From contig JWZX01002205.1 of NCBI GenBank assembly GCA_001275005.1, positions 1-33,912 of the forward strand: DNA of 33,912 bases, read 5' to 3'. This stretch comes from Chrysochromulina tobinii. Taxonomy: Eukaryota; Haptophyta; Prymnesiales; Chrysochromulinaceae. The translations under genes and the position numbers were made by a program. Shown piece by piece: positions 1 to 33,912 of the stretch. How positions within the stretch are numbered: the first letter of the stretch is position 1; each line of letters starts with the position of its first letter. A model generated the notes under the pieces. The model did no database searches and had not been told where the DNA came from. It was given only the letters and a program-made list of their open reading frames with translations.

Positions 1-1711
1 TCACATCTGAGGCCTCAAAGAAGGCGGGTGCGGATGGCGCGGCGGCGGTGGCGGTAGCGGGGCAAAAAGCAAGGGCGTCGGCAGCTGAGCAGGGCGCCAG
101 CCGAGCGGCGAAGCAGCTGCCTGCAACGACGCCACCGGTACAGGCGGCAGTTGCGGCAATGTGACCGGCGGCGGCGGTGGCATACTCGCTGGCGGCGGCG
201 GCAGTGCTGCCGCCATCTCCGCAACTGCCGAGGCTGCCAGAGTCGCTGCCGCCACCGCCAGTGCCGACGCCGGCTGTCTTGCTGCCGCCACTGCCGCCAC
301 TGCCGCGCCTTCCGCCGCGCCTTCTGCCGCCGCATCCACTGCGGCGGCATGCGACGCCTCCAGCATTGCCAGGCGGTGGCGCGCATCGCGCCCGTCCTCC
401 TGCAGCGCTACCGCCGCCGCGCGCAGCCGCCGCGCCTCCTCGCGCGCCTCGTCAAGTTCCCGATGCGCTTCGGCCAGCAGACGCTCCTTGGTGTCGAGAC
501 GGCGCTCCATCGCGCGCACCTGCTCGGTTGCGGACTGCATGTCGTGTGCACGGCTTGCACCTGATGAGGCGGGCACTCAGCATGCCCTCAGCATGCCCTC
601 AGCATGCACTCATCATGCACTCAGCATGCACTCAGCATGCACTCATCATGCACTCATCAACATCATTCACTCGGCATCTTGCACTCAGCATGTCGTGTGC
701 ACGGCTCGCACCGGCCTCGTGCGCGTTTGCGTCGGCATGTGCGAGCTCGCGCAGCAGTAGCTGTGTCACTGCTTTCCCCTGCGCGAGCTGCCACATCAAA
801 CCTTCGCTCTTCTCGGCCTGACGCAGCGAGCTGGCCTGCGCCTTCTGCAGCTGCTCGACGGCCGCACGCCGCTGCGCGTGTGCGCCGAGCTCGCGCATGT
901 GGCTTGCGTTTGCCTGCGCCTGCGTGCCATTGAGGGCCTCGGCCGTGCGCGCGAGCGTCGCGTGCGTCGCCGCGAGCTCAGCCTCTTTGGCCGCGTGCGC
1001 GCGTTCCTTGTCTGCTGCGGCGTCGCGCGCCTGCTGCACCTCGCGTAGCGCGAGCTTGAGGCGCTGCTCGAGATGCGCGCGCGGTGCGGCCGCACGCTGA
1101 GTTGCTTCAACGGCCTGCAGCTGGTGGCGCATCGCTTCCTGGTCCTTGCGCACGCCGCCGATGGCGTCCTTGCATGCGTGCTCCGCCCGTGCGGTCGCCT
1201 CGATCACGCGGCTAACCTCCTCGATCCGCGCGCGGAAGGTGGAGATCAGGTCCTCAGCTTCCTCCTGCTCGAGGCGTAGCCGGCTCACCTCGGCGGTGCG
1301 AGCGCGCAGCTGCTCCTCGAGCGAGTAGAGCTGCTGGCCCTGCTGCTGCAGCTTGGCTTGCGCAGCCTTGGCCTTGTCACTGGTGAGCTTCTGCTGCAGC
1401 TCGTGTCGCGAGCGCTCGTCCTCGGCCGCCTTGTGCTGCGCTGCCGTGCGCTGGTCAGTCTCCTCCTCCTTGCGCGTCGCCTCATCGAGGCGCCGCTGCA
1501 TGTCGGCAAGCTCCGCCTGGCGTGTCTTCGCTGCTTCGACCTCCTCCTGCAGGCGAAGCTCAAGGTCTTGCGAGCGCTGCTCGAGCAGGCCGTTCTCGTG
1601 CACAACTCCCAGAAGAGCCTGCTTGAAGCGCGAGAGCGAGATGGCTTCCGAAACGCCCTCGGACACGGAGCACAGGCCGCCTGAGGGCTGCGTGCTGGGC
1701 GAGGCCGCCAT
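1..1711 (-). CDS. Long coiled-coil protein with Pro-rich C-terminus, two exons
   Basis: Exon 1 is 1711..712 and exon 2 is 560..1, giving about 519 residues and ending with TGA exactly at base 1. The ATG at 1711 begins MAASPSTQ. From about residue 25 to 390 the protein is an almost unbroken heptad-type coiled coil rich in E, Q, R, A and L (for example LELRLQEEVEAAKTRQAEL). It then becomes Ala-rich and ends in a proline-rich tail (PPPPASMPPPPPVTLPQLPP). The splice joins GAGGCCG to GTGCAAGC and restores the reading frame through HEAGASRAHDMQSATEQ, continuing the coiled coil. Without splicing, the frame runs into a stop inside the minisatellite. I recognise no named family. A structural, cytoskeletal or flagellar/centrosomal role is typical of such proteins but is not shown here. 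Confidence 0.72.
561..711 (-). other. Intron of the coiled-coil gene, built of 11-base repeats
   Basis: This 151-base intron has donor G|GTGCGAGC and acceptor GCCTCATCAG|GTGC. Its body is about seven copies of an 11-base unit, TGAGTGCATGC or TGAGTGCATGA. The first 24 intron bases (711-688) repeat the first 24 bases of the next exon (560-537) with one mismatch, so exon sequence is duplicated around the insertion. Because of this repeat, the exact splice position could slide by whole equivalent bases, but only this choice keeps GT-AG and the frame. Confidence 0.7.
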
Positions 1712-10934: not shown

Positions 10935-13900
10935 TCAGATCACCTCCCCATCATCGTCGTCCTCATCGTCATCCGCCTCCTCGATGACGGGCGCCATCTC
11001 GCCTAGTGTCGTCTCGCCAGCGGGAAAGCCTTCGGCGAGCGCCTTCGCTGCCTTGGCCTTCTCAGCCTGAGCACCGATGCCAAGAGTGAGATACGGATCA
11101 GATCAATCATAATCAACCATACTCAACCACACTCAATCATAATCAACCAACCACATGCAATCACCTTAGCTGCCTTCTTGCGCTCAGCCTCGGCTTTGGC
11201 CGCCGCCTCCTCAGCCTCGGCAGCGGCGTCGGCGGCCTCTTGCTCGGCCACCCGTCGTTGATGCTCCTCCTGAAGCCGTGCGATGGCCTCAGCGACAAGC
11301 TCTGGTGGAGGTGGTCGCATGTCGGGCCGCGTCCTGTTGAGCACTTCGAGCGCGTCCTTCGCGGCCTTAGCGGCTGGCGCCACGCGACAGTTAGAGGCGA
11401 GGTGCGAGAGGGCCCCGAGCGCCAGGACAGCATGCTCAGGTACCTAATTAGGCAGGCACTCGATTTCGACGAGACGCACTCAGAGGTCATCATAGGTCAT
11501 CATAGGTCATCATAGGTCACCATAGGTCATCATAGGTCACCATAGGTCACCATAGGTCATCAGAGGTCATCAGAGGTCATCAGAGGTCATCATAGGTCAT
11601 CATAGGTCATCATAGGTCATCAGAGGCCATGCTTGGCACTCACTGTCCCCCCCTCGGGTCCGATCATCGCCTCGGTCGAGCTGGTGAGTAGGCGCTGGAG
11701 CGCCGCGGCCGCGCGATGGACTAGACCAGGCTCCTCGCAGATGAGGGCAATCTCGACGAGAGGCTCGAGCACACCAGCCTGCAGGAGGCTACCGCCGATC
11801 TCAGGCGACTGCCAGCCCAGCAGAGTTGCGATGCCGCCCACGGCGGCGATCTGCGACTTGACGTCATCCGAGCCGCAGAAGCCTACGAAGACCTTGGTGG
11901 CCGTCGAGGTAGGGCTGGTGAACTTTTGGGCGATCTCGTCGTGGGAGACAAGGTTGGACATGGCCTCAATCGCGGCGCGTTGCACGAGCGGGTTTTCGGA
12001 GGTGAGCGCCATCTCGAGCGCGCGCCACCCCTTCTCTTTGACGATCTTCTCTTTGAGATCGTCCACAGTCGCCAGATTGCATAGGCACATGCATGCCTCG
12101 AATGTGCTCAGCTCATGGCTCAGATCATCAATGAGCTTGATGATCGGCTTGACCATCGCCTCGGGCCCTGAACCGGTGCGACGCGGATAGAGCGCCGGGT
12201 TGATCGAGATGCCCACCTGTTCCGGGAACCAATCGAGATGTACTCACATGCACTCAGAAGTCATCATCGGAGGTCATCAGAGGTCATCGGAGGTCATCAG
12301 AGGTCTTCGGAGGTCATCAGAGGTCATCAGAGGCCATCAGAGGTCATCGGGAGAGAGGCCTACCTTCGCGAGCGCCCAAGCTGCCGCGCTGGCGGTCTTC
12401 GCGTCCTCACTCAAGGTGAGCCCACATAGCGCCTTGAAGCCGCCTTGCTGCACGATCTTGCCGCGCGCGTCCGGCTCGGTGGCCATGGCGAGCAGCACGT
12501 CAGCCGCGGGCCGGTGGAGGGATTCACTCTTCGACTGGGCGAGCGCCTCGGCGACGACGAGGACGGCATCGTCCATGACGAGCCTGTGGGCGAGCTTGGT
12601 GAGGATGGCCGGGTCGTCTTCCCTCTCGGAGGGCGGTGCGCCGAGTCCGCCGGCGGCCAGCTGCTTCATCTGCTCGATCTGCGCCTTGTCCATTTCGGCC
12701 TCAAGTCGCTTCTGGTCGTCCGACTTTTCGCGCGGCGACACGAGCCTGATGAGGGAGGCAATCAGCGGCCATCATCAGAGGTCATCATCAGTGGTCACCG
12801 GAGGCCGTCCTCAGTGGTCATCAGTGGTCCTTCAGAAGCACTCACCGTCGGAAGGAGGAGAGGAGAGAGAAGCCGAGAGAAGGCTCTGACGCGATGGACT
12901 GGGAGAGGGCGGTGAGGGAGCCAAATGAGGTGCCTTGCTCGACTAGGAACATCTTCGTGTCGGGTAAGATGGTGAGGTACATGAAAGCCTCGACTGCCCA
13001 TCGGTGCACCGAGGGCGCCACCTGATGAGGGACGCAATCAGAAGCGCTCAGGGCAACTCAATTAGAGGCCATCCGATGCGCTCAGAGGCCATCAGAAGCA
13101 ACTTTGAGGCACGTTGAGGCACGTTGATGCATGTTGAGGCACGTCGAGGCTCGTCGAGGCAATGACGCAAGTTGAGGCTATCCAATCAGACGCACTCAGA
13201 CGCACTCAGACGCACTCAGACGCACTCGGACGCGCTCACCTTGGCCTCGAGCAACCCGAGCGTCGCCGTGAGCAGCTTGCCCGTCGGGTTGATGGTCACT
13301 CGGTGGCTCTGGTGGATGAGCGCCGTCTTGGCCAGCGCGACGCACGCGCGGCAGCGTACGCGCGGCTTGGTCGATTTGAGCATCGTCTTCAAGTTCTTAA
13401 TGGGCTCTTCGCCAGCCTTGTCCCGGAATTGCGACTGGTCACTCGCAGCGTGCGCGTAGATCTCCGCGAGCGACTTTTGGAGGTCTTCATCGTCCAGATC
13501 GGCCGCTTCGGCCAGGGACCAAAAGATGGACTCTTGGCGCAGAAGATTCGCGCCGACCTCCTTGTTGACCTCGAGGACTGCAGTCACGCCATGCACGGCG
13601 GCCACGTGCTCGGCCCACTCGACGTGATCGGATCTGAGGATAGGAGAGAGTACGGACTCGATGAGGGAGGCAATCAGCATGCAATCAGTCATGGAGTACC
13701 CCCATGCTCCGAGTGGGCACGCACCTGATGAGGGAGGCAATCAGCATGCAATCAGTCATGGAGTACCCCCATGCTCCGAGTGGGCACGCACCTGATGAGG
13801 GAGGCAATCAGCATGCAATCAGTCATGGAGTACCCCTATGGGCACGCACCTGAGGATGGGCGAGAGTACGGACTCGCACACTTTCGAGAGAGCGGGGGTG

Positions 13901-15102
13901 TTCTCGCCCTCCTCCTTGCCATCCTTGGAGCCCCCAATCTTCGCCATGAGCACCGAGAGCACCCCGAGCGCCATCTTGTGCTGCTGTGACTCCTCGTCAC
14001 CGAGCAGCCAGATGAGCTCCTTGAAGACCTGTGGAAGCACCGCACTCGCCGCCTCCTTATCTTTATCCACGACTCGAATGAGGCCGTCCTGGCCGGCACG
14101 CGCGATGCTCGACTCGTGGTGGCGCAGAAAGGGCAGCAGACTCACCACAAGCATCCCCTGCGCATCCTGCGTGCCGAGCGCCGAGCGACAGCCGGCGGCA
14201 CTCGCAAGCAAGGAGAGGGAGCGACGCGCCGTCAGCAGCAGGTTCTTGACGCGATCGGGCTCTTTTGGCGGCGCCGGTGGGAGGCCGTGCGCGATGGCCG
14301 CGGCGGCCGCCTCGGCATCCGCTTCGCCCAGCTCCTTGCCCGCCTCGGCCGCGGCCGTCGCGACCCCGAGCAAGCGACCAATCGCGCTGCCTCCTTGGGC
14401 CTTCGTCATCGCTTTGAGCACCTCCGACTGTGCCTTGTCCTCGGGTCCAGACATGCGGTCGAGCGCCTCGATGGCGAGGCCCACGATCGGCATCGATATG
14501 TCCGCGGCCTTCGCTACCTCGCTCGGCAGCAGCTGCACGAGCACCTCGACCGCGCCCGCGTGCACCAGCTCTGCAGAGCGGCCGCCGTCCTCCGCGATAC
14601 GCGAGAGCTTGCCTGCAGCCTGCAACTGGTCGTCGCTGCCGGCTGCGGCCGTACGCAGCATCTCCACGGCCTGCGTGGGCGTCGACAGGTCGCTCTTCGC
14701 CGCGCGCTCCTCCATGGCGCGCTTCAGCTTCGCTGCGAGCTGGACTGCCTCCTTGTTCGTCGGCTCGAGCTGCATCAGCATGCGCACATCCTTGAAGGCG
14801 TCGGCGAGCTTGTTCATCGCCTCGCATGCCTGCGCGCGGCGGTAGTACGCCTTGCCGTAGCGTGGGTTGATCGCGAGCGCGGCCGTGCAGTCCTCCTTGC
14901 TCTTCTCTGGCTGCGACAGCTTGAGGTACACGAGCGCGCGGTTGGCGAGCAGTGCGGACGCATCGGCGTGCTTCTTCTCAGGATCCTTGTCCAGCGCCGC
15001 CGTGTAGCTCGTCAATGCTTCCGGGAGCTTTCCCGCCTTCAGCTGCTCGTTGCCCGCCGCTTTGAGCGACTCAATCATGGACGAGTCGTCGGGCACGAGC
15101 AT
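10935..15102 (-). CDS. UNC-45-like TPR/armadillo myosin chaperone, seven exons
   Basis: The exons are 15102..13850, 13633..13240, 13021..12846, 12745..12364, 12216..11644, 11443..11165 and 11066..10935. Together they give 1062 residues, against about 930-940 in animal UNC-45. Residues about 10-120 form three TPRs (NEQLKAGKLPEALTSYTAAL, ANRALVYLKL, KAYYRRAQACEAM), the Hsp90/Hsp70-tail binding part. Armadillo-type helices follow. The myosin-binding UCS region is clear: VHRWAVEAFMYLT, RLVMDDAVLVVAEALA, GKIVQQGGFKALCGLTL, INPALYPR, STFEACMCLCNLA, VQRAAIEAMSNLV and GFCGSDDVKSQIAAVGG. All junctions keep frame. The tail encoded by exons 6-7 is unusual: an Ala/Glu coiled coil, then an acidic end (DDDEDDDDGEVI). 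The ATG at 15078 is an alternative start. The protein probably folds myosin motors. Confidence 0.88.
11067..11164 (-). other. UNC-45-like intron 6
   Basis: This 98-base intron has donor AAG|GTGATTGC and acceptor GGTGCTCAG|GCTG, phase 0. The first half is a 10/20-base repeat related to GGTTGATTATGATTGAGTGT. It lacks the shared 3' module. Confidence 0.8.
11444..11643 (-). other. UNC-45-like intron 5, decamer minisatellite
   Basis: This 200-base intron has donor ACA|GTGAGTGCC and acceptor CTAATTAG|GTAC, phase 0. About fourteen tandem copies of the decamer GATGACCTAT (with CTCT and GGTG variants) fill most of it. Each copy with CTGAT or TATGAT carries a branch-point-like sequence. Confidence 0.85.
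12217..12363 (-). other. UNC-45-like intron 4
   Basis: This 147-base intron has donor AAG|GTAGGCCTC and acceptor CCCGGAACAG|GTGG, phase 0. Its body is the decamer GACCTCTGAT with CCGAT and CCGAAG variants. Close to the 3' end CATCTCGATT repeats the start of the next exon (CATCTCGATC), a 9-base duplication across the splice site. Confidence 0.82.
12746..12845 (-). other. UNC-45-like intron 3, carries the shared 3' module
   Basis: This 100-base intron has donor GACG|GTGAGTGC, phase 2. It ends exactly in CTGATTGCCTCCCTCATCAG, the 20-base module shared with the PRMT intron. The body has degenerate CTGATGACC units. Confidence 0.85.
13022..13239 (-). other. UNC-45-like intron 2, several minisatellites in series
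   Basis: This 218-base intron has donor AAG|GTGAGCGC and acceptor CTGATTGCGTCCCTCATCAG|GTGG, phase 0; one base differs from the shared module. It starts with four or more GAGTGCGTCT decamers, continues with GCCTCAACGT-type decamers, and ends with CTCTGATGGC-type units. Confidence 0.82.
13634..13849 (-). other. UNC-45-like intron 1, tandem array of intron-like units
   Basis: This 216-base intron has donor CCTCAG|GTGCGTGCC and acceptor CTATCCTCAG|ATCC, phase 2. It consists of three repeats, each starting GTGCGTGCCC and ending at or near CTGATTGCCTCCCTCATCAG. Two internal AG|GT junctions lie at 13794/13793 and 13727/13726. The last 26 bases duplicate the end of exon 1 with two differences. Retaining the intron gives an early stop after RCVP....LHD. 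Confidence 0.82.
13660..13849 (-). repeat. 67-base tandem repeat, three copies
   Basis: Copies occupy 13849-13794 (56 bases, internally shortened by 11), 13793-13727 (67) and 13726-13660 (67, with the last bases altered from CATCAG to CATCGA). The two full copies are otherwise identical as far as I can read. Each unit includes both a donor-like start and an acceptor-like end. Confidence 0.9.
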
Positions 15103-15533
15103 CTCATGACGCGTCTCGCGCGTGAACAAGAAAATTTTCGTCGTTCACAGCGACGGCACAACGTCGAGCCGGCCACAACAGTCCTCAAAGTGGGGAGCAG
15201 CTGTCGACTGGCCGCAACATGTATACAAAACGCCCCGGCGGCTTGCAACGTTGCAACGCGGGGCATACCACACAGAACTCGAGAGGCTCGAGATACAGAC
15301 GCCCGTTTAAGTACACGCGGCTCGATGGTGCTCGCCTCGTCCCCACCCGCACTGTCACGCAACGCTCGCGCGGCAAGATGGCGAGAGGTTCCGCTGTGGT
15401 GCGCGTGTTCGCACGTGATCAGGTTCTCTCGCGCGCCACGCCGCAAGCAACGTCGCAGCCGTCTTCCGCGCAGTTCTGCTCACGCGTCACTCGTGACGAG
15501 ACCCAGCTGTCGGGGACTGCAGCGTGACGAACC
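15103..15533. other. Intergenic region upstream of the UNC-45-like gene
   Basis: These 431 bases hold the UNC-45-like promoter and the PRMT 3' end. ACATGTA lies at 15217-15223, about 115 bases upstream of the ATG at 15102, and a short direct repeat TTGCAACG lies near 15245. I see no convincing gene. Confidence 0.4.
15217..15223. promoter_or_regulatory. ACATGTA motif upstream of the UNC-45-like gene
   Basis: Seven of the eight bases of the TACATGTA octamer are present, at the same kind of distance (115-121 bases) from the start codon as at other genes of the window. Confidence 0.3.
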
Positions 15534-17003
15534 TTAATCGGCGCGCGGGATGTCTCTCTCGAGCTGGAACTGCAGTGTGACGCCATCAGCCGAGTAGCGC
15601 GTCACGAGTATGAGCCATTCGCCCTCGGTCACCACAAAGGGCGCGGGCGCCATGCCCGCGGCGGCCTGCGAGAGGTCCTCGATGAGCTGCAGGCCCTGCC
15701 CCCACTGCATGTCGCGCGGGAAGTTATCGAGCGTCGCATCCGGATGGGTCGACATCGTCGCGACCAAGGGGCGTGGCGGCGCTGGTGGCAGCGAGCCGCC
15801 GCCAACGCCGCCGCCGCCGCTGCTGCTGCTGCTGATGCTGCTGTCTGCTCCGCTGGCGGCGCAGGCGTCGAGGGCGGCAGCGCCAGCCACCGGAGAAGAG
15901 TCATACACCTCCCACGAGGCAAGAATAGCATGCACCTTGCCCGATTTGGTCGCCTGCACGCGCTGGCGCATCTCTCCGCGCCACAAGCCAACTACGTCGT
16001 ACGCAAAGTCGACGTGTAGCACTGCCTGTCGTGCGGCGAGCTCGCGGTAGTGGCACGAGGAGAAGCGGAAGCCGTACTGCTTGGTGAAGACCATCGAGGT
16101 CGTGTCCTGAAGCGTGTTGAACCAGCCGAGATCGATACCCTCCCACGAGCGCACCTGATGAGGGAGGCAATCAGAGGTCATCAGAGGCCATCAGAGGTCA
16201 TCAGAGGCCATCAGAGGCCATCAGAGGCTATCAGAGGCTCTCACCGACGTGATCGACTCGATGTCCTGACTCTCGACGAGCGTGGCGAACTGGCAGCCGG
16301 CGCGCGGCACGACGGCGGCGTTGTGCGCGACGAGGCGCTGACGCGCGTCCATCACGTAGTGCAGCGCCGACTCACCCAGTAGCAGAGTGCCCAGGATCTC
16401 TGAGAGCAAGACAGTCGGCGTGCCGCCATATGCGGCGACCTCCTCCGGCTGACACTCGGTCGACATCTTGTTAATGATGTGTATGCGCGATTCGAAGCCG
16501 TTGCGCCGGATGATCTCGCGCGCCACGTTGGCCAGGTGGCGGTTCGCTTCGATGGCGATCACGGCCTTGGCACCGAGCGAGGCCGCGATGATCGAGAGCA
16601 GGCCCGAGCCCGCTCCGATCTCGAGCACGATCGACTCGGGCGTCACGACGCGGCGGAGGCAGTCGCGGTAGAACTCGTTGCGCGGATGGTCGTTCATCAT
16701 AGCGTAGTGCCAGTCGTTGGCCGCTTCGATGAGCTCATATGGCTTGTCGCGCAGCCGCTCGGGTATTAGGAATGCTTTGGGCACATTGGCCTCGAAGAGG
16801 TTCGTCTCCTTGCCTTCCGATCCGGGAGGCTTGTAGGGCATCCCCTCGTCGTACGGCTCGTCGCCGTCGTAGGCGTCATAGTCGTGCTCGTCATAGCCCT
16901 CCTGCTCGGCCAGCTCGTCGTCTGGCGCGTCACTCATGCCGACGGCCTCTGTGTTCATGCACGCTTTCGCAAAGACCTCGTCGCCAATGTGAAAAGTAAA
17001 CAT
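15534..17003 (-). CDS. PRMT7-like protein arginine methyltransferase, two exons
   Basis: The exons are 17003..16245 and 16154..15534, giving 459 residues. The SAM-binding core is clear: motif I VLEIGAGSGLLS (126-137), IEAN (151-154), IINKMSTE as in PRMT7 (human VINKHSTE), and the double-E loop SEILGTLLLGESAL with E202 and E211, which bind the arginine guanidinium. The C-terminal barrel includes VHAILASWEVYD and RDMQWGQGLQLIEDL, which lines up with RDHWMQ of PRMT7; the THW-loop histidine appears to be Gln. It has one PRMT module only, whereas animal PRMT7 has two. The N-terminus is acidic (EQEGYDEHDYDAYDGDEPYDEG). A Ser/Gly-rich loop interrupts the barrel. Substrates would be nuclear or cytosolic arginine-rich proteins. 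It is divergent from the neighbouring membrane-protein gene. Confidence 0.88.
16155..16244 (-). other. PRMT intron, almost pure decamer repeat
   Basis: This 90-base intron has donor TCG|GTGAGAGCC, phase 0. About seven copies of CCTCTGATGG or CCTCTGATGA are followed directly by CTGATTGCCTCCCTCATCAG. It is the cleanest example of the family: donor, decamers, 3' module and nothing else. Confidence 0.88.
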
Positions 17004-20917: not shown

Positions 20918-20983
<66 letters not shown>

Positions 20984-27377: not shown

Positions 27378-28301
27378 TCTCGAGGTTTCTGAGGGTCTCC
27401 CCGCGTCGCGTGTACCTCGTGGTAGAAAGTCCCAAAGAGAGAAATCGTCAATTGGCAAGTTTTTCGCCGCACAACCCTGCCGCGACGGTATCCGGATACG
27501 TGATACATGTAAAAAGACACAGATACATGTACACAAAGCTGTGTGAAAGCGGAAAGACGGCGCCACTTTTGTGTGCGACTTGCGTGCGTATGTTCCCGAC
27601 GCTCGTTTTCTTCCGGTTTGCACGATGAAGAACCGCAGGACCATCGGGAACGCCGAACGCTCGGTGACCCGTCTCGACTGGTGCGCGCAAAGGTACGTAC
27701 TACCGTTGGCCCCGAGCGCTGACGCGCATGATCAAATCGCGCGCTTTCAGACCAGCGCCGTGATTGGCCCCAGCCCCGCAGTGCCCGCGCCAAGCAATGC
27801 ACTGGGCGCGCACGCGCGCGAGCCAACCCAGTGGCCGCACGCTGGCGATCGATATCGCGCGACTCATCGTGCGCTACCCGCCCGCCCGCCTTCCTACGCA
27901 GGGACTACATCCTGAGCCGTCTGCACTACATTGATATCACCACCTCCCTTGCAGTGGCTTTGGCCGCTGCCGTGGCTATGGCCGTTGAGTTGTCGGCCGC
28001 TGCGATCCTCACCTCCGCCGCGGCAGCCACGACTCTGGTCGGCGTCACGGTCACCAGCTCTCCGACCGTCACCAAACAAACGGCTGTCGTTTCGCTGGCC
28101 CTCGGCCGCGACCCCAACTTTCGCCTCCTGGGCTCTTGCATCGCCATCATTGCCGCGGTTGCCGTGCTCGCCGCCATCCTCTCCTGCAGCCGATGGATCT
28201 CCAAACCTGAGCGGAAATTGAAAACGGGTACCAACCGTTCCGGTGGGCTTCCGACATCGCTCCGTCCACACCCGAAACTCCCGACCACTGTTTGCCTCAC
28301 A
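27378..28301. other. Divergent intergenic region, 924 bases
   Basis: This lies between CBP20 (-) and the large secreted protein gene (+). Two TACATGTA motifs sit near the CBP20 side. From 27831 to 28301 the frame of the large gene is open without an ATG at its beginning. It would encode a hydrophobic segment (LLGSCIAIIAAVAVLAAILS), so an unseen upstream exon cannot be excluded. No other gene is visible. Confidence 0.4.
27504..27531. promoter_or_regulatory. Two TACATGTA palindromes upstream of CBP20
   Basis: Exact octamers lie at 27504-27511 and 27524-27531, each preceded by GA, 20 bases apart. They are 127-154 bases upstream of the CBP20 ATG. A 20-base spacing is about two helical turns. Confidence 0.45.
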
Positions 28302-31300
28302 ATGAGGGTGGCACAACTCGTTCTGGTGCTCTTGCTTTGTCCCGGGGGTATGTCAACTACGCTCGATTCGGGACCCATTCTTATTCACCAAGTCGGCATG
28401 CATGCAGGTAATCAGGGCATGGCCACAGAACGGGCGGTGCGAGAGGCAAAGTTCCATAAGGCAGAGGCTGCAGCGGAAGATGCCTTTCTTTTCAAGCATC
28501 GCCTTCAATATCATGATGCTGTTTTGAACAAACTCACGTATTACGAGTACAGTGCACGTCGCCATCGTCACGTCCTCATGCTGAATGAGATGAACATTTC
28601 TTCGTGTGCACTGGAAGTTGTGGGTGACCAGATTCAGAAAGTTCATCTGACGTCTCGCGATCACGATGGGCTCAGAATGAACATGACGGCAGGTACGTTT
28701 CTCTCGCACCTTCGCTCTCGTGTTGATCGTTGTTTTCTCACGAACTGCGTTCGGTTATATGTCGCAGGGACGATATTTGCGGGGAAGATTGATTGCCAGG
28801 TCCAAGGAAGCCAACACTTGTATGGCAAGCCGCTACAAGAACAGGCGGTCACAGATCCTAATGTCACACTCGACGCGAACGGGTTCGAAGCCGTCCTGAT
28901 TGTCGCTACGAGACCGGTGGGTTTCAATGACTGTTTCGAACACGCGGAGATTGAGTACTTTCATGGCGAGCCGCAAAGTCTCTACGACGCACGTCTCGCA
29001 CGAAATTTGTCTCTTTCTTCCAAGGGATACAGCGTTCCTGATGAAGGCTTTGCCAAAACACATGAGGTGATTGCTGATTCTGTACGCCACAAGGGGAACG
29101 CAAGCGTTCAAGCGACTTGGACTTCTGTCGAAGACCTGGCATCGAATCGGACCGCACGCGCCTCTCGTCATCTTGCGCATTCATCCTGCCCTTTTGGTGC
29201 AGATCCCGATGATATTACAATCGACATCTTTGGGACTGATTGTACGGATCTGGCTCCTGGAGCCGCTATGGAAGGCACGGATTGCTTCTGGCATCCATCC
29301 CCGACCTCGGCTGTCCCCGTACTTAAAGTCGGCAACACGTACACCTTGCAATGGGCATCGACAACTGCGTCAAATCCAAATGTTGCCATTTATATTCAGA
29401 AACTTGGGGCACTCTGGGGAAGTACGAGCTGTGCGGACTTGTCACCACAATACTGGATTGACAACCAAGCTTACTCAGGTTCTACGTCAAGCTCCCCGAA
29501 CTCCTTCACATTTCAAATGCCTGATCTTCGGGCGCTTGCGTGTGCAAGCGACTTTCTTGGCGGCTTCCCGGTATTTCAGTTCAACATTTACACCGAAGGC
29601 GAATGCCATCGTGGTTCGTCGAGTGAGTTCAGGCTTTTGCAGAACGCCTCAAGAACTTCTCAAGCAATTTCTCTGAGCGTCCCTGCCCAATACGAGCTTG
29701 GTAGCGCAAGTGAAGGTCTTAGGGTCAAGTGTGCGAGTTGCTATGCCAGTGGCACAGGTAGCATTCATGTCCTACTTCGCACCTCGAGTTACAATCCCTT
29801 CGATGAGACATGGACGTGGGGCAACTTGAACCTGAGTGGCCATGTAGATGTCGAAGCACAAGCGTATGCAGCGGCATCGCGGACTCTTGGCCCTGTTCAG
29901 GTCCTCGGCCGTCTTTGTATTCCACCTCTCTGTGTTCCAGCCAGTGTTGCAAGCGTTGACGTCTTCTTTGGAGTCCTTGCGGATCTTTGGGTGGGCGCAG
30001 AAGCAACATTTGATGCAATCGCCACTCTCACGTATCAACGCACTTTGAGCTCCTCTGGAACGCTGGCACATCATACATGGCAGGGTTCGGTCCTACAAAC
30101 TTCCATAGACGGATTCGTTCCCAGCGCTCCGACAACAGCTTCTCCGGCAACACCGCAACTGCGGCTGAATATTGATGCAACTGCTCGTGTGCACGTGATC
30201 CCCCGATTCTACGCTGGTTTCTTCCTATCCGCCTCAACATGGACGCAAGCAGAGGCGTACATTAAAGTCGAGGTTCAAATGTCGCTATCAGCTCAGTTCA
30301 ACTTTCGAACTGCACTCGGGACAAGCAATTTCTTCCCAGCCAGAAACTTAGCCCTGGTCGCACCTCTCTCCCGCCTTCCGCCGATTCCCTATGTGCTGTG
30401 CGGCGAGACCTGCGACTACTCATCCGATGGCTCATGCGACGACGGCGGCCCCGGCGCGGAGTACTCGGATTGTGGGTACGGCAGCGACTGCACCGACTGC
30501 GGCCCGCTGCTTTCAGCGTGCACAGAGACTTGCAACTATCCATCCGATGGCTTTTGCGACGACGGCGGCCCCGGCGCGGAGTACTCGTCTTGTGGGTATG
30601 GCACTGACTGCACCGACTGCAGCCCGCGGCCCGCACGGCTTCCAGCAGCAGCGTGCACAGAGACCTGCAACTATCCATCCGATGGCTCATGCGACGACGG
30701 CGGCCCCGGCGCGGAGTACTCGGATTGTGGGTATGGCACTGACTGCACCGACTGCAGCCCGCGGCCCGCACGGCTTCCAGTGGCACCGCCCGCGACTGGC
30801 CTCTGCACAGAGACGTGCGGATCTTATGCCTCGGATGGCTCATGCGACGACGGCGGCCCCGGCGCGGAGTACTCGGATTGTGGGTACGGCACCGACTGCA
30901 CCGACTGCGGCCCCCGCACCTCGGGAAGCCCACCGGGAAGGCCCCCGCCGCCCTCTGCCCCTGCAACCGGGCCGCCGCAGACCTGCACCAATGCTTTGAC
31001 TGGTTGTTCATCAGCATGCTCAGGAAATCACGATACACATCTAGGATTCCGGCTCAGCACAACTGTCTATGGTGCATACAAGTTCTATCTTCAAACCTCA
31101 CTTCCTCTGTTTGGGGCTTTGAATTTCGGTTCCCCGTGGGAGATAAGTTTATCATCCTTGTCCTATGTTTACAACCGGTACATTGGCTCCTTCTGCTATT
31201 ACCTCTTCCCTCAATCGCTCCCACCACCGCCGCCATTGCCGCCGCCGCCGCCATCGCCCTCACCGACGCCTTTGCCGCCGCCGCCCTCGCCCTCGCCCCC

Positions 31301-33912
31301 GCCGCCCTCGCCCTCGCCCCCGCCGCCCTCGTCGCCTCCACTCCCGCCGCTCGCTCCGCTCCTGACTAATGGCGAGTGCGCCGTCATCTACGTGAAGAGC
31401 GACGAGCCAGACAACTTTGGGATCGTGCTCTTCGACTGGGTCTATGCTGGCCAGCAGATCTTCGTGACCGACAACAATTACTTGGGCGGCTGCACCGACA
31501 CGTGCAACTACGCCTCCGACGGCGACTGCGACGACGGCGGCCCCGGCTCGGAGTACGTCGCTCGACGCCAACTGGAGGAACGCCGACTTTTTTTCGGCGG
31601 CGGGGGGGCCACTGAATGCACTTACGGTACCGACTGCACCGACTGCGGGCCCCGCGTTGCGAGGTTCAGCGATACAGAGACCCATACGACGTACACGGCC
31701 CCCGTGGACCAGCCCCCCGGATCCGTCATCACCTTGAACTCCCCCGGCATGTCTGGCAGCATTCAGCTTCAGACCGACGGAGATGAGCTCATCGTCTACC
31801 GGGGCTCCCGGGCCAACCCGATTTTCCTGTGCGGCTTCTGCAACAGGCCGCTCTTCGCGAACTGCAATTTCAACTTAATTCCAGGCTACAACTCGAGCAT
31901 GCCCGCTGGCGTCTTCAACTACCTCCAGAATCCCGGCGGATCATCCCGGGCCGACCAGTGGATCTACGATACTCGCCCGCGTGGGACCCCGGGAATCCCA
32001 GTCTCGACTGGAACGCCACCTCCCGGCCTTGGCGCCCCCTTCGCCGGCTCGGCCGCTACGCTGCTGGCGGCCATCAACAACCGCTCGAATTGGTTTCAGA
32101 GCAACACGCTCTGGATCGCCGTTCAAGATGTCGTCCCTGCGGGTGGGTACCGCATCGGCAATCTCCCCCCGTCGCTCCCCCCCCCGAGTCCGAGCGCGCC
32201 GCGATCCCAATCGCCGCCGCCGCCACCCAGCCCCCCCAAGTCGCCGCCGCTGCCACCCGCCGCGCCGCCGCCACCGCCGCTGGGCCCGGGCGACTGTCTC
32301 TTCACCGCCCTCAAGACGGACGACCCGGACGACTTCGGGCTCGTCCTCTTCAAGACGCTCGGCTACACGGAGACGCTGTACGTGACCGACGACACGTGGC
32401 TCTCGCCGACCGGACCGTTTGCTCGGAACCCGCTTGAGCCCCACCTCATGTTCCGGCCCAGGATGAACCGCGACGTGCCCGCGGGCACGGTGCTCCGGAG
32501 GGCCAACTTCACCCTGACCAACGGTGCTCCAGGTAATTTCCAGCTCAGCGACGCCGGCGACCAGCTGCTCGCGTACCTCTGGCCAAACCACTTTAGCAAC
32601 ACCACCCAGCCCACCTTCCTATGCGGCATCGACAACACCGCCACGGGATGGTACGTCCCCTCGTCCACCTGCACCGAGACGTGCAACTGGGCCTCTGACG
32701 GCGAGTGCGACGACGGCGGCCCCGGCTCGGAGTTCAACGCTGGACGCCGACTGGAAGAACGCCGACTTTTTTTCGGGGGAGGGGGGGGAGGGGGGGATAA
32801 TGGATGCCCCCTCGGTTCCGACTGCAGCGACTGCGGCCCGCGCGTGAACCCTCTGTGCCCTCTTAATGCTGACGGGCTGCCAAGCTGCGGAGAGAAATCG
32901 TATTTGCCCTCAAGCCTCGTGACGGACTACAGCGCGCTGAGCTTTGGGCACGACGACAACTTGAGGTACGTGGGCGGCTTCCAGAACGTCACCAACGCCG
33001 GCACCGTCGCGGCTCTGCGGGCGTCCATCGTCCGGAGAGCAAACTGGGTGTTCAACAACGTGATCACCGGCCCATTCCAACAGATAACCTCTTTTGAAGT
33101 CTACCCCGACCCGCCCTCCCCGCCGCCTTCTCCGCCCTCGCCGCTGCCCCGACCCCCCCCCCCATGTCGCCGCCGCGGCCACCCGCCGCGCCGCCGCCAC
33201 CGCCGCTGGGCCCGGGCGACTGTCTCTTCACCGCCCTCAAGACGGACGACCCGGACGACTTCGGGCTGGTCCTCTTCAAGACGCTCGGCTACACGGAGAC
33301 GCTGTACGTGACCGACGACACGTGGCTCTCGCCGACCGGACCGTTTGCTCGGAACCCGCTTGAGCCCCACCTCATGTTCCGGCCCAGGATCAACGGCAAC
33401 GGCCTCGACGTGCCCGCGGGCACGGTGCTCCGGAGGGCCAACTTCACCCTGGCCAACGGTGCTCCGGGCAATTTCCAGGCCAGCGACGTTGGCGACCAGC
33501 TGCTCGCGTACCTCTGGCCAAACCACTTTAGCAACACCACCCAGCCCACCTTCCTGTGCGGCATCGACAACACCGCCACGGGATGGTTCGTCCCCTCGTC
33601 CACCTGCACCGAGACGTGCAACTATGCCTCCGACGGCGACTGCGACGACGGCGGCCCCGGCTCGGATTCCCCTTTGTGGAAAGTTATAGCGGGTCTATTT
33701 GGGGGTGATTGCCCCCTCGGTTCCGACTGCACCGACTGCGGCCCGCGCGTGAACCCTCTATGCCCTCTTGTTGGCGGGGTGGCAAGCTGCGGTGAGAAAT
33801 CGTATTTGCCCTCAAGCCTCGTGCCGGACTACAGCGCGCTGAGCTTTGGGCACGACGACAACTTGAGGTACGTGGGCGGCTTCCAGAACGTCACCAACGC
33901 CGGCACCGTCGC
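28302..33912 (+). CDS. Large secreted modular Cys-rich/Pro-rich protein, partial, with a frameshift
   Basis: ATG 28302 begins a signal peptide (MRVAQLVLVLLLCPGG). Residues about 20-690 are a globular region with many possible N-glycosylation sites. It includes a beta-sandwich-like stretch with TLQWAS and later LRVKCASCYASGTGSIHVLL, loosely recalling fungal secreted-wall proteins. From 30399 come four cysteine modules (CTETCNYPSDGSCDDGGPG.. ending GTDCTDCGPR). A hydroxyproline-type linker (31215-31365) follows, then three units of a module starting GDCLFTALKTDDPDDFGLVLF, each holding a further cysteine module. At 33153-33163 a run of eleven C shifts the frame: the upstream frame ends at 33311, while the homologous protein continues in the next frame from 33164 to the window edge. 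The pattern suggests a sequence or assembly error, or a real frameshift. It is probably a cell-surface, scale or extracellular-matrix glycoprotein. Confidence 0.78.
30399..30917 (+). repeat. Four tandem cysteine modules
   Basis: The copies are at 30399-30506, 30519-30629, 30654-30764 and 30804-30917, each of 36-38 residues. The consensus is C-x-E-T-C-x(3)-SDG-x-CDDGGPG-AEY-x-x-CGYGTDCTDC. Six cysteines per module suggest three disulphides, and the aspartates suggest calcium binding. DNA identity between copies is very high. Confidence 0.93.
31491..31655 (+). repeat. Fifth cysteine module, interrupted, nested in unit 1
   Basis: It has the same consensus, but about 18 residues (ARRQLEERRLFFGGGG core) are inserted between SEY and the fourth cysteine. 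It lies after VTDNNYLGG, early in the surrounding domain. Confidence 0.88.
32670..32843 (+). repeat. Sixth cysteine module, interrupted, nested in unit 2
   Basis: It carries nearly the same insert as the fifth module (GRRLEERRLFFGGGGGGG). It is placed after LCGIDNTATGWYVPSS, later in the domain than the fifth module. Confidence 0.88.
33605..33748 (+). repeat. Seventh cysteine module, nested in unit 3
   Basis: It sits at the same position as the sixth module, but its insert differs: SPLWKVIAGLFGGD replaces the LEERRLFF insert. It is encoded in the shifted frame after the C run at 33153-33163. Confidence 0.85.

Follow-up and report, generated by a model that had tools for sequence, protein, structure and literature searches.

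How new introns originate is an old open question, because most introns are too old to reveal their source. Retroposition offers one model of copying: long and short interspersed elements (LINEs and SINEs), which are inserted by target-primed retroposition, leave 3′-anchored, 5′-truncated copies between long target duplications of variable length. Among the closest described intron-making systems are the introners surveyed by Gozashti et al. in 2022, with target duplications of 3-9 bp (4 bp in Symbiodinium) (PMC9860276). That survey, which like the other published work cited in this text is considered here in part, demanded similarity reaching near both splice sites, and low-complexity families were removed by hand; its Chrysochromulina sp. 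example, from a TARA metagenome genome, has 4-bp duplications and carries its own 5′ site and donor (PMC9860276). In Daphnia, neo-introns that arose by repair of staggered breaks are flanked by repeats of 4-12 bp (PMC4202315), and a 2025 paper reported direct repeats of 4-30 bp near the splice sites of 213 introns (PMC11782384). A review from 2012 lists seven mechanisms of intron gain, and in the part considered none was seen to pair an intron-derived insert with a target duplication; in the reverse splicing model described there, a spliced intron re-enters mRNA and there is no target duplication step (PMC3443670). Here we analysed a stretch of 33,912 nucleotides of the haptophyte Chrysochromulina tobinii (contig JWZX01002205.1, assembly GCA_001275005.1; the whole stretch is called the window), in which introns of the UNC-45 and PRMT7 genes end in a common 20-mer, CTGATTGCCTCCCTCATCAG, made up of a branch site, a pyrimidine tract and the acceptor CATCAG.

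The introns ending in this 20-mer very probably form an introner-like family that has recently multiplied in the C. tobinii nuclear genome and is accompanied by long target duplications of variable length. Within the window seven matches with up to three mismatches were found, all on the minus strand, compared to 0.01 expected from dinucleotide shuffles. Four of them are exact (12746-12765, 16155-16174, 13725 and 13792), while the altered ones are located at 13022 (one change), 13658 (two changes, ending CATCGA) and 561-580 (three changes). As an earlier sequence-only reading of the window had claimed, the exact 20-mer ends UNC-45 intron 3 and the PRMT7 intron, a copy with one change ends UNC-45 intron 2, two intact copies and one altered copy lie within UNC-45 intron 1, and a related sequence ends the intron of a coiled-coil gene. 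It had named a 20-mer confined to these genes as a refutation, and this was not the case. When the genome (53.15 Mb, 2,253 contigs) was searched with at most one mismatch, 1,945 copies were found (954 forward, 991 reverse), compared to 0 for the reversed pattern, and the core TCCCTCATCAG was found 2,351 times compared to 13 times for its reversed control. The exact 20-mer is followed by GT at 425 places. Twenty 10-kb stretches chosen blind to the motif held 13 members (up to three mismatches, ending in AG), or about 65 per Mb. No exact copy was present in the viral contigs and none in the prokaryote genomes searched. The genes carrying the 20-mer are unrelated (AAA ATPase, asparaginase, P-type ATPase, protein kinase, FtsZ and HEAT-repeat by Pfam, above cut-off), and the family, like introners, consists of similar introns across unrelated genes.

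The inserted piece extends beyond the 20-mer, which forms just its 3′ end. The body of the intron is often a low-complexity array of approximately 10-nt tandem units, each with a branch-like CTGAT, and similarity of the bodies alone would therefore not prove copying. Unlike body similarity, the target duplications and the donor-derived exon sequence described below do prove it.

To score duplications, the exon sequence right after the 20-mer was compared with the 380 preceding bases (scoring +1/−2), and re-paired sequences served as controls. The 93 exact copies used were taken from the genome listing, further fetches and the window, without using the downstream sequence as a criterion; from the 100 listed genome places, C336-C380 and C158 were left out, as were copies near stretch ends or in overlapping fetches. 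A score of at least 12 was reached by 53 of the 93 copies compared to 16 of 465 controls, and a score of at least 20 by 34 copies compared to 4 controls. When the repeat was free to start anywhere within the next 60 bases, a score of 12 was obtained for 82 of 114 copies and 8 of 114 controls, in a set that includes copies picked because GT comes after the 20-mer. Of these 82 repeats, 53 have their first base immediately after CATCAG and 61 start no more than two bases from there, which places the boundary of the insert at the acceptor. GT directly follows 61 of the 93 exact copies, which were not picked for it, whereas GT makes up 5.2% of the dinucleotides in the window.

For the structure of the insertions we used 45 clean cases from 42 loci, defined by a score of at least 11, an insert of at least 30 nt and no end of another copy directly before; 11 of these 45 cases are loci picked because GT comes after the 20-mer. 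Their duplications are 11-60 bp long (median 23), with 41 cases between 11 and 44 bp and the remaining four, of 57-60 bp, lying within repeated units on C54, C205 and C334. The two copies of the duplication are identical in 18 of the 45. The insert has a median length of 53 nt and the whole intron of 81 nt. The second copy starts with GT in 36 cases and the first copy in 32, and the base preceding the first copy is G in 35. We read the GT of the first copy as the donor and the second copy as the restored exon. Tandem arrays in which duplication and insert alternate in units of about 67-82 bp were observed at C1300:5066-5407, on C334 (L088), on C107 (L040) and in the window at 13660-13840. Slippage between the flanking duplications of such arrays may expand introns or remove them precisely.

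Sites without the intron were sought in one gene, the C45 gene (locus L008, HEAT repeats by Pfam), and there they were found. Its two introns were spliced out to give a query of 550 nt, which yielded 27 matching stretches, of which three belong to C45. Query positions 1-463 are matched at 86% identity over 463 bases by C1931, the closest paralogue, so neither C45 intron is present there. The other 23 stretches (66-81% identity) cross the first C45 junction with a length difference of at most 21 nt. Six paralogues were fetched and aligned (C1931 and five others), and all were without the first intron and without the duplication: the region GACATCTC..CTCTC or its counterpart runs directly into the exon, whereas 52 foreign bases and a second 22-base copy intervene in C45. 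A further 18 stretches were judged to be without C45 intron 1 from the coordinates. The sequence-only reading had named sites lacking the intron in related strains as support for an active family, and sites without the intron exist as paralogous sites of this gene. Its view of a copied intron-making element is supported by them, by the 1,945 copies and by the spread over unrelated genes, but the 5′ side of the intron, with its donor, was duplicated from the target exon. Similarly, the module of branch site, pyrimidine tract and CATCAG that it described is supplied by the insert, but the sharing among introns covers the 3′ side only. The C45 multigene family (C1931, C2049, C1244 and others), with 24 matching stretches outside C45 at the DNA level, is useful for mapping intron gain. 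The same locus L008 (minus orientation) also holds, at about 885-975, an intron-like (GATGACT)n insert between two copies of an 18-bp duplication, CTCGCGGAGGCGCTGCAG; in this mirror image of the 20-mer introns, the acceptor would come from the second copy.

The relatives of PRMT7 were compared at the protein level. Cluster P0080 (98% identical, 48 sequences) terminates with VRASDSL, the sequence obtained by reading through the PRMT7 intron, whereas in P0096 (86%) and P0103 (76%) the sequence continues through the intron site. The 98% and 86% identical proteins come from metagenomes. From these translations we infer that P0080 represents unspliced open reading frames and that the PRMT7 intron is absent in P0096 and P0103. 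In another relative, P0130 (75% identical), the sequence after this junction departs to VRRPASDSAH...; the site may there be occupied by an intron whose sequence differs.

In some cases the source of an insert could be traced. The C289 gene, which we take to encode a Lon protease (its short fragment has no Pfam match), has two introns of the family. The first consists of a 5′ part ending in ACCGATTAC, which belongs to the exon duplication, followed by an insert of TCTGATGATGACCT and the 20-mer. The second, located 269 bases upstream of the first, has a 28-bp duplication of its own and an insert consisting of CCGATTAC, TCTGATGATGACCT and the 20-mer. The second intron thus holds exon sequence native to the first, which makes it a 5′-truncated, 3′-complete copy with known direction. 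The intron of the C19 asparaginase gene (Pfam) contains a 36-mer that was found elsewhere in the genome only on C395, twice in tandem (up to three mismatches). On C395 the first 26 bases of this 36-mer recur, with one difference, as open-frame exon past the array, and the match between C395 and C19 is confined to the introns and a few adjoining bases. Judged from these sequences, the insert moved from C395 to C19.

Related inserts were also found elsewhere. On C214, 52 bases are common to two introns with different duplications, the insert type of C111 occurs elsewhere only on C298, three times, and a subfamily defined by a 34-mer occupies 38 places on 29 contigs (up to three mismatches), including an array of five on C1300. 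After self-repetitive extensions were filtered out, 13 of 292 same-contig pairs had related inserts compared to 95 of 17,754 other pairs; pairs were counted in both directions and are not independent. Related inserts are thus both enriched on the same contig and spread over the genome, which indicates that copying is partly local and partly dispersed.

The features of the window that belong to these introns are as follows.

Positions 561..711, minus strand: intron of the coiled-coil gene, 151 nt, ending in CTGAGTGCCCGCCTCATCAG with three mismatches to the 20-mer; the frame is open once it is removed.
Positions 688..711, minus strand: first copy of the 24-bp target duplication of this intron, forming the intron 5′ end and supplying the GT donor.
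Positions 537..560, minus strand: second copy of the same 24-bp duplication, in the exon, with one difference.
Positions 13634..13849, minus strand: UNC-45 intron 1, 216 nt; at 13660-13840 it contains 2.7 tandem copies of a 67-bp unit, with a 20-mer per unit, exact at 13725 and 13792 and altered at 13658.
Positions 13850..13873, minus strand: first copy of the 24-bp duplication of UNC-45 intron 1, in the exon.
Positions 13634..13657, minus strand: second copy of this 24-bp duplication, with two differences; its CCTCAG is the acceptor.
Positions 13022..13239, minus strand: UNC-45 intron 2, 218 nt, ending in a copy of the 20-mer that has one change; a duplication was not found.
Positions 12746..12845, minus strand: UNC-45 intron 3, 100 nt, whose last bases (12746-12765) are the exact 20-mer; a duplication was not found.
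Positions 12217..12363, minus strand: UNC-45 intron 4, 147 nt, with an end that is not the 20-mer.
Positions 16155..16244, minus strand: PRMT7 intron, 90 nt, consisting of tandem 10-nt units and the exact 20-mer (16155-16174); no duplication found.

Of these six introns, two (the coiled-coil intron and UNC-45 intron 1) carry a 24-bp exon duplication. In UNC-45 intron 4 an 11-base similarity with two differences, GTAGGCCTCTC / GTGGGCATCTC, was found between the intron start and the next exon. The UNC-45 boundaries were placed by hand, and both UNC-45 and PRMT7 form a single open frame once the introns are removed. When 19 UNC-45 homologues were aligned, 17, 17, 16-17 and 16 rows were gapless at the four joints, with conserved surroundings; at intron 3 short gaps occur a few residues upstream, and the remaining rows are truncated or divergent. 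From the 120 PRMT7 homologues listed, 40 were aligned, and in 38 of these SITS is followed across the joint by V..W, or a near form. We infer that these introns are spliced in the cell. Transcriptome data exist for C. tobinii (PMC4580454). Two other intron stretches of UNC-45, at window positions 11480-11630 and 11102-11149, consist of other 10-nt units, TCATAGGTCA and ATCAACCATA (plus strand), and their ends are not the 20-mer.

Several observations weigh against the reading of a duplicating, intron-making family. At score 12 no duplication was detected for 40 of the 93 exact copies, and 32 of the 93 have no GT directly after them. In the window, the same test found no duplication in three of the six introns (UNC-45 introns 2 and 3 and that of PRMT7). 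Nine clean or array cases have a second copy that does not start with GT, and for some of these no obvious donor was found. Of the 13 members from the unbiased stretches, seven scored at least 12, six of them in two arrays, and copies inside one array are not independent. Furthermore, scoring of the short flanks with a codon model was noisy and gave no clean count of the sense strand, and many flanks hold further introns. For part of the copies without duplication, convergence may be the explanation.

Compared with the introners of Gozashti et al., the C. tobinii family has in common that many similar introns occupy new positions. It differs in its variable duplication, usually of 11-44 bp, in the lack of clear inverted repeats, in its 5′-truncated inserts and in a low-complexity body of the type that was filtered out there. 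The similarity demanded in that survey reached near both splice sites, whereas here only the 3′ end is shared and the 5′ part is a target duplication specific to each copy. The C. tobinii family also suggests that surveys dropping low-complexity introns could miss whole intron-making families. With the Daphnia neo-introns, the family shares an exon direct repeat around an inserted filler, but the repeats are longer here; the Daphnia inserts are not described as one family in the part of that paper considered (PMC4202315), whereas those of C. tobinii come from introns and have a single 3′ end in common. Reverse splicing likewise has an existing intron as its source. However, a full-length intron copy without target duplication, as that model predicts, was not what we observed: the copies are 5′-truncated and accompanied by long duplications. 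In the tandem duplication of AGGT (PMC3443670), as here, the 5′ part of the intron arises from a duplicated piece of exon, but in C. tobinii foreign intron sequence between the exon copies supplies the branch site and the acceptor. A simple AGGT tandem duplication was therefore rejected, since the insert is not exon-derived. The 3′-anchored, 5′-variable copies and the variable target duplication are those of LINE/SINE retroposition, but no poly-A or LINE tail was seen and the assembly holds hardly any LINE-type endonuclease. We class the family as a case of introner-like intron gain set apart from transposon-type introners; the species may already be listed among introner bearers. The C. tobinii genome paper reports about one intron per gene, and in the part considered no intron sequence families are discussed and transposons or transposition go unmentioned (PMC4580454). 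No paper was recognised as describing this family in the literature searched, which did not cover the species lists in the supplements of introner surveys.

In the mechanism that we propose, the mobile piece would be the 3′ end of an intron, consisting of a variable count of approximately 10-nt CTGAT-bearing units and CTGATTGCCTCCCTCATCAG. It would insert into an exon directly upstream of a GT, with duplication of the bases that follow the insertion point (median 23, usually 11-44). The GT of the first copy would then become the donor and the CATCAG of the insert the acceptor, while the second copy would restore the exon. With the donor coming from the first copy, the acceptor from the insert and the exon restored, the message would remain unchanged. 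The insert would be templated by the intron 3′ end: intron RNA would be reverse-transcribed where a staggered break had formed, or the sequence would be supplied by DNA template switching or as filler during repair. The arrays would result from later slippage between repeats. The duplicated target, the exact end and, sometimes, a donor intron with a shred of donor exon are legible scars of intron birth. Because these scars are legible, source, direction and truncation can be counted, and RNA- and DNA-templated models can be compared.

To these RNA and DNA routes we give about equal weight. In the DNA route, template switching or staggered-break repair would use intron sequence as filler and selection would retain the copies that end in an acceptor, which we hold to be a real possibility, somewhat short of an even chance. 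It agrees with the local bias of related inserts, with the many other local duplications in random stretches and with the six identical bases found after the acceptor in two groups (C289 and C395/C19; the background for six or more is 1.0%). A scan for direct repeats regardless of the 20-mer gave 185 pairs in 233,912 bases, with repetitive coding sequence dominating among the matches listed. However, the other groups share 0-1 bases, and over 41 filtered pairs the mean prefix shared after the acceptor is 1.73 compared to a background of 1.56. Moreover, the exact CATCAG end is retained even where the second copy does not start with GT, which is not obviously explained by selection on splicing alone. 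In the RNA route, which resembles target-primed retroposition, a staggered break in an exon would receive a reverse transcript of a released, 5′-trimmed intron RNA. This would explain the truncation and the 3′ end fixed at CATCAG with a variable 5′ end, and it is consistent with the variable duplication length, with the dispersal of copies among contigs and with 26 matches to the reverse transcriptase domain RVT_1 in the genome. On the other hand, the LINE-type (APE-type) endonuclease PF14529 gave one match (30.7 bits, cut-off 27.4) in an assembly that may miss repeats, and the enrichment of related inserts on the same contig (13/292 compared to 95/17,754) does not favour it; we regard the RNA route as about as likely as the DNA route. 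That introns spread as retroposed 3′ ends, with 5′-trimmed intron RNA reverse-transcribed into a staggered exon cut and the duplication supplying the donor, we consider possible but less likely than not. If true, any intron with a good branch-acceptor block could seed introns, and a dedicated transposon would not be needed.

A non-autonomous DNA transposon with terminal inverted repeats, as in known algal introners, could account for the many copies with target duplications, and when the 5′ ends of inserts were compared with the reverse-complemented 3′ end, 8 or more of 10 positions agreed in 4 of 58 cases compared to 1.8% of random places, a slight excess. No general terminal inverted repeat was found in the 58 inserts tested, however, and instead of a fixed short duplication (3-9 bp) the 45 clean cases have duplications of 11-60 bp with a median of 23. 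These two findings set the family apart from transposon-type introners; in addition, the 5′ end is variable and donor exon is carried in inserts, which makes a transposon of this kind improbable. Still less credible is that no transposition took place and that old introns became alike by convergence, owing to a common, rigid signal for splicing and a 10-nt repeat prone to slippage. Many introns are indeed filled with tandem 10-nt CTGAT-bearing units, and low-complexity families were excluded by Gozashti et al. on similar grounds (PMC9860276). Yet pure convergence of repeat-filled introns is contradicted by the exon duplications, the intronless sites and the remnants of unique donor exon sequence in inserts.

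Two further repeats were noted in the window outside these introns. About 22 CAG/GCA triplets follow one another without interruption at 20918-20982, within a long open reading frame that presumably encodes a kinase. At 30405-30913, 135-bp tandem repeats in a large open reading frame (27831-33311) code for cysteine-rich repeats.

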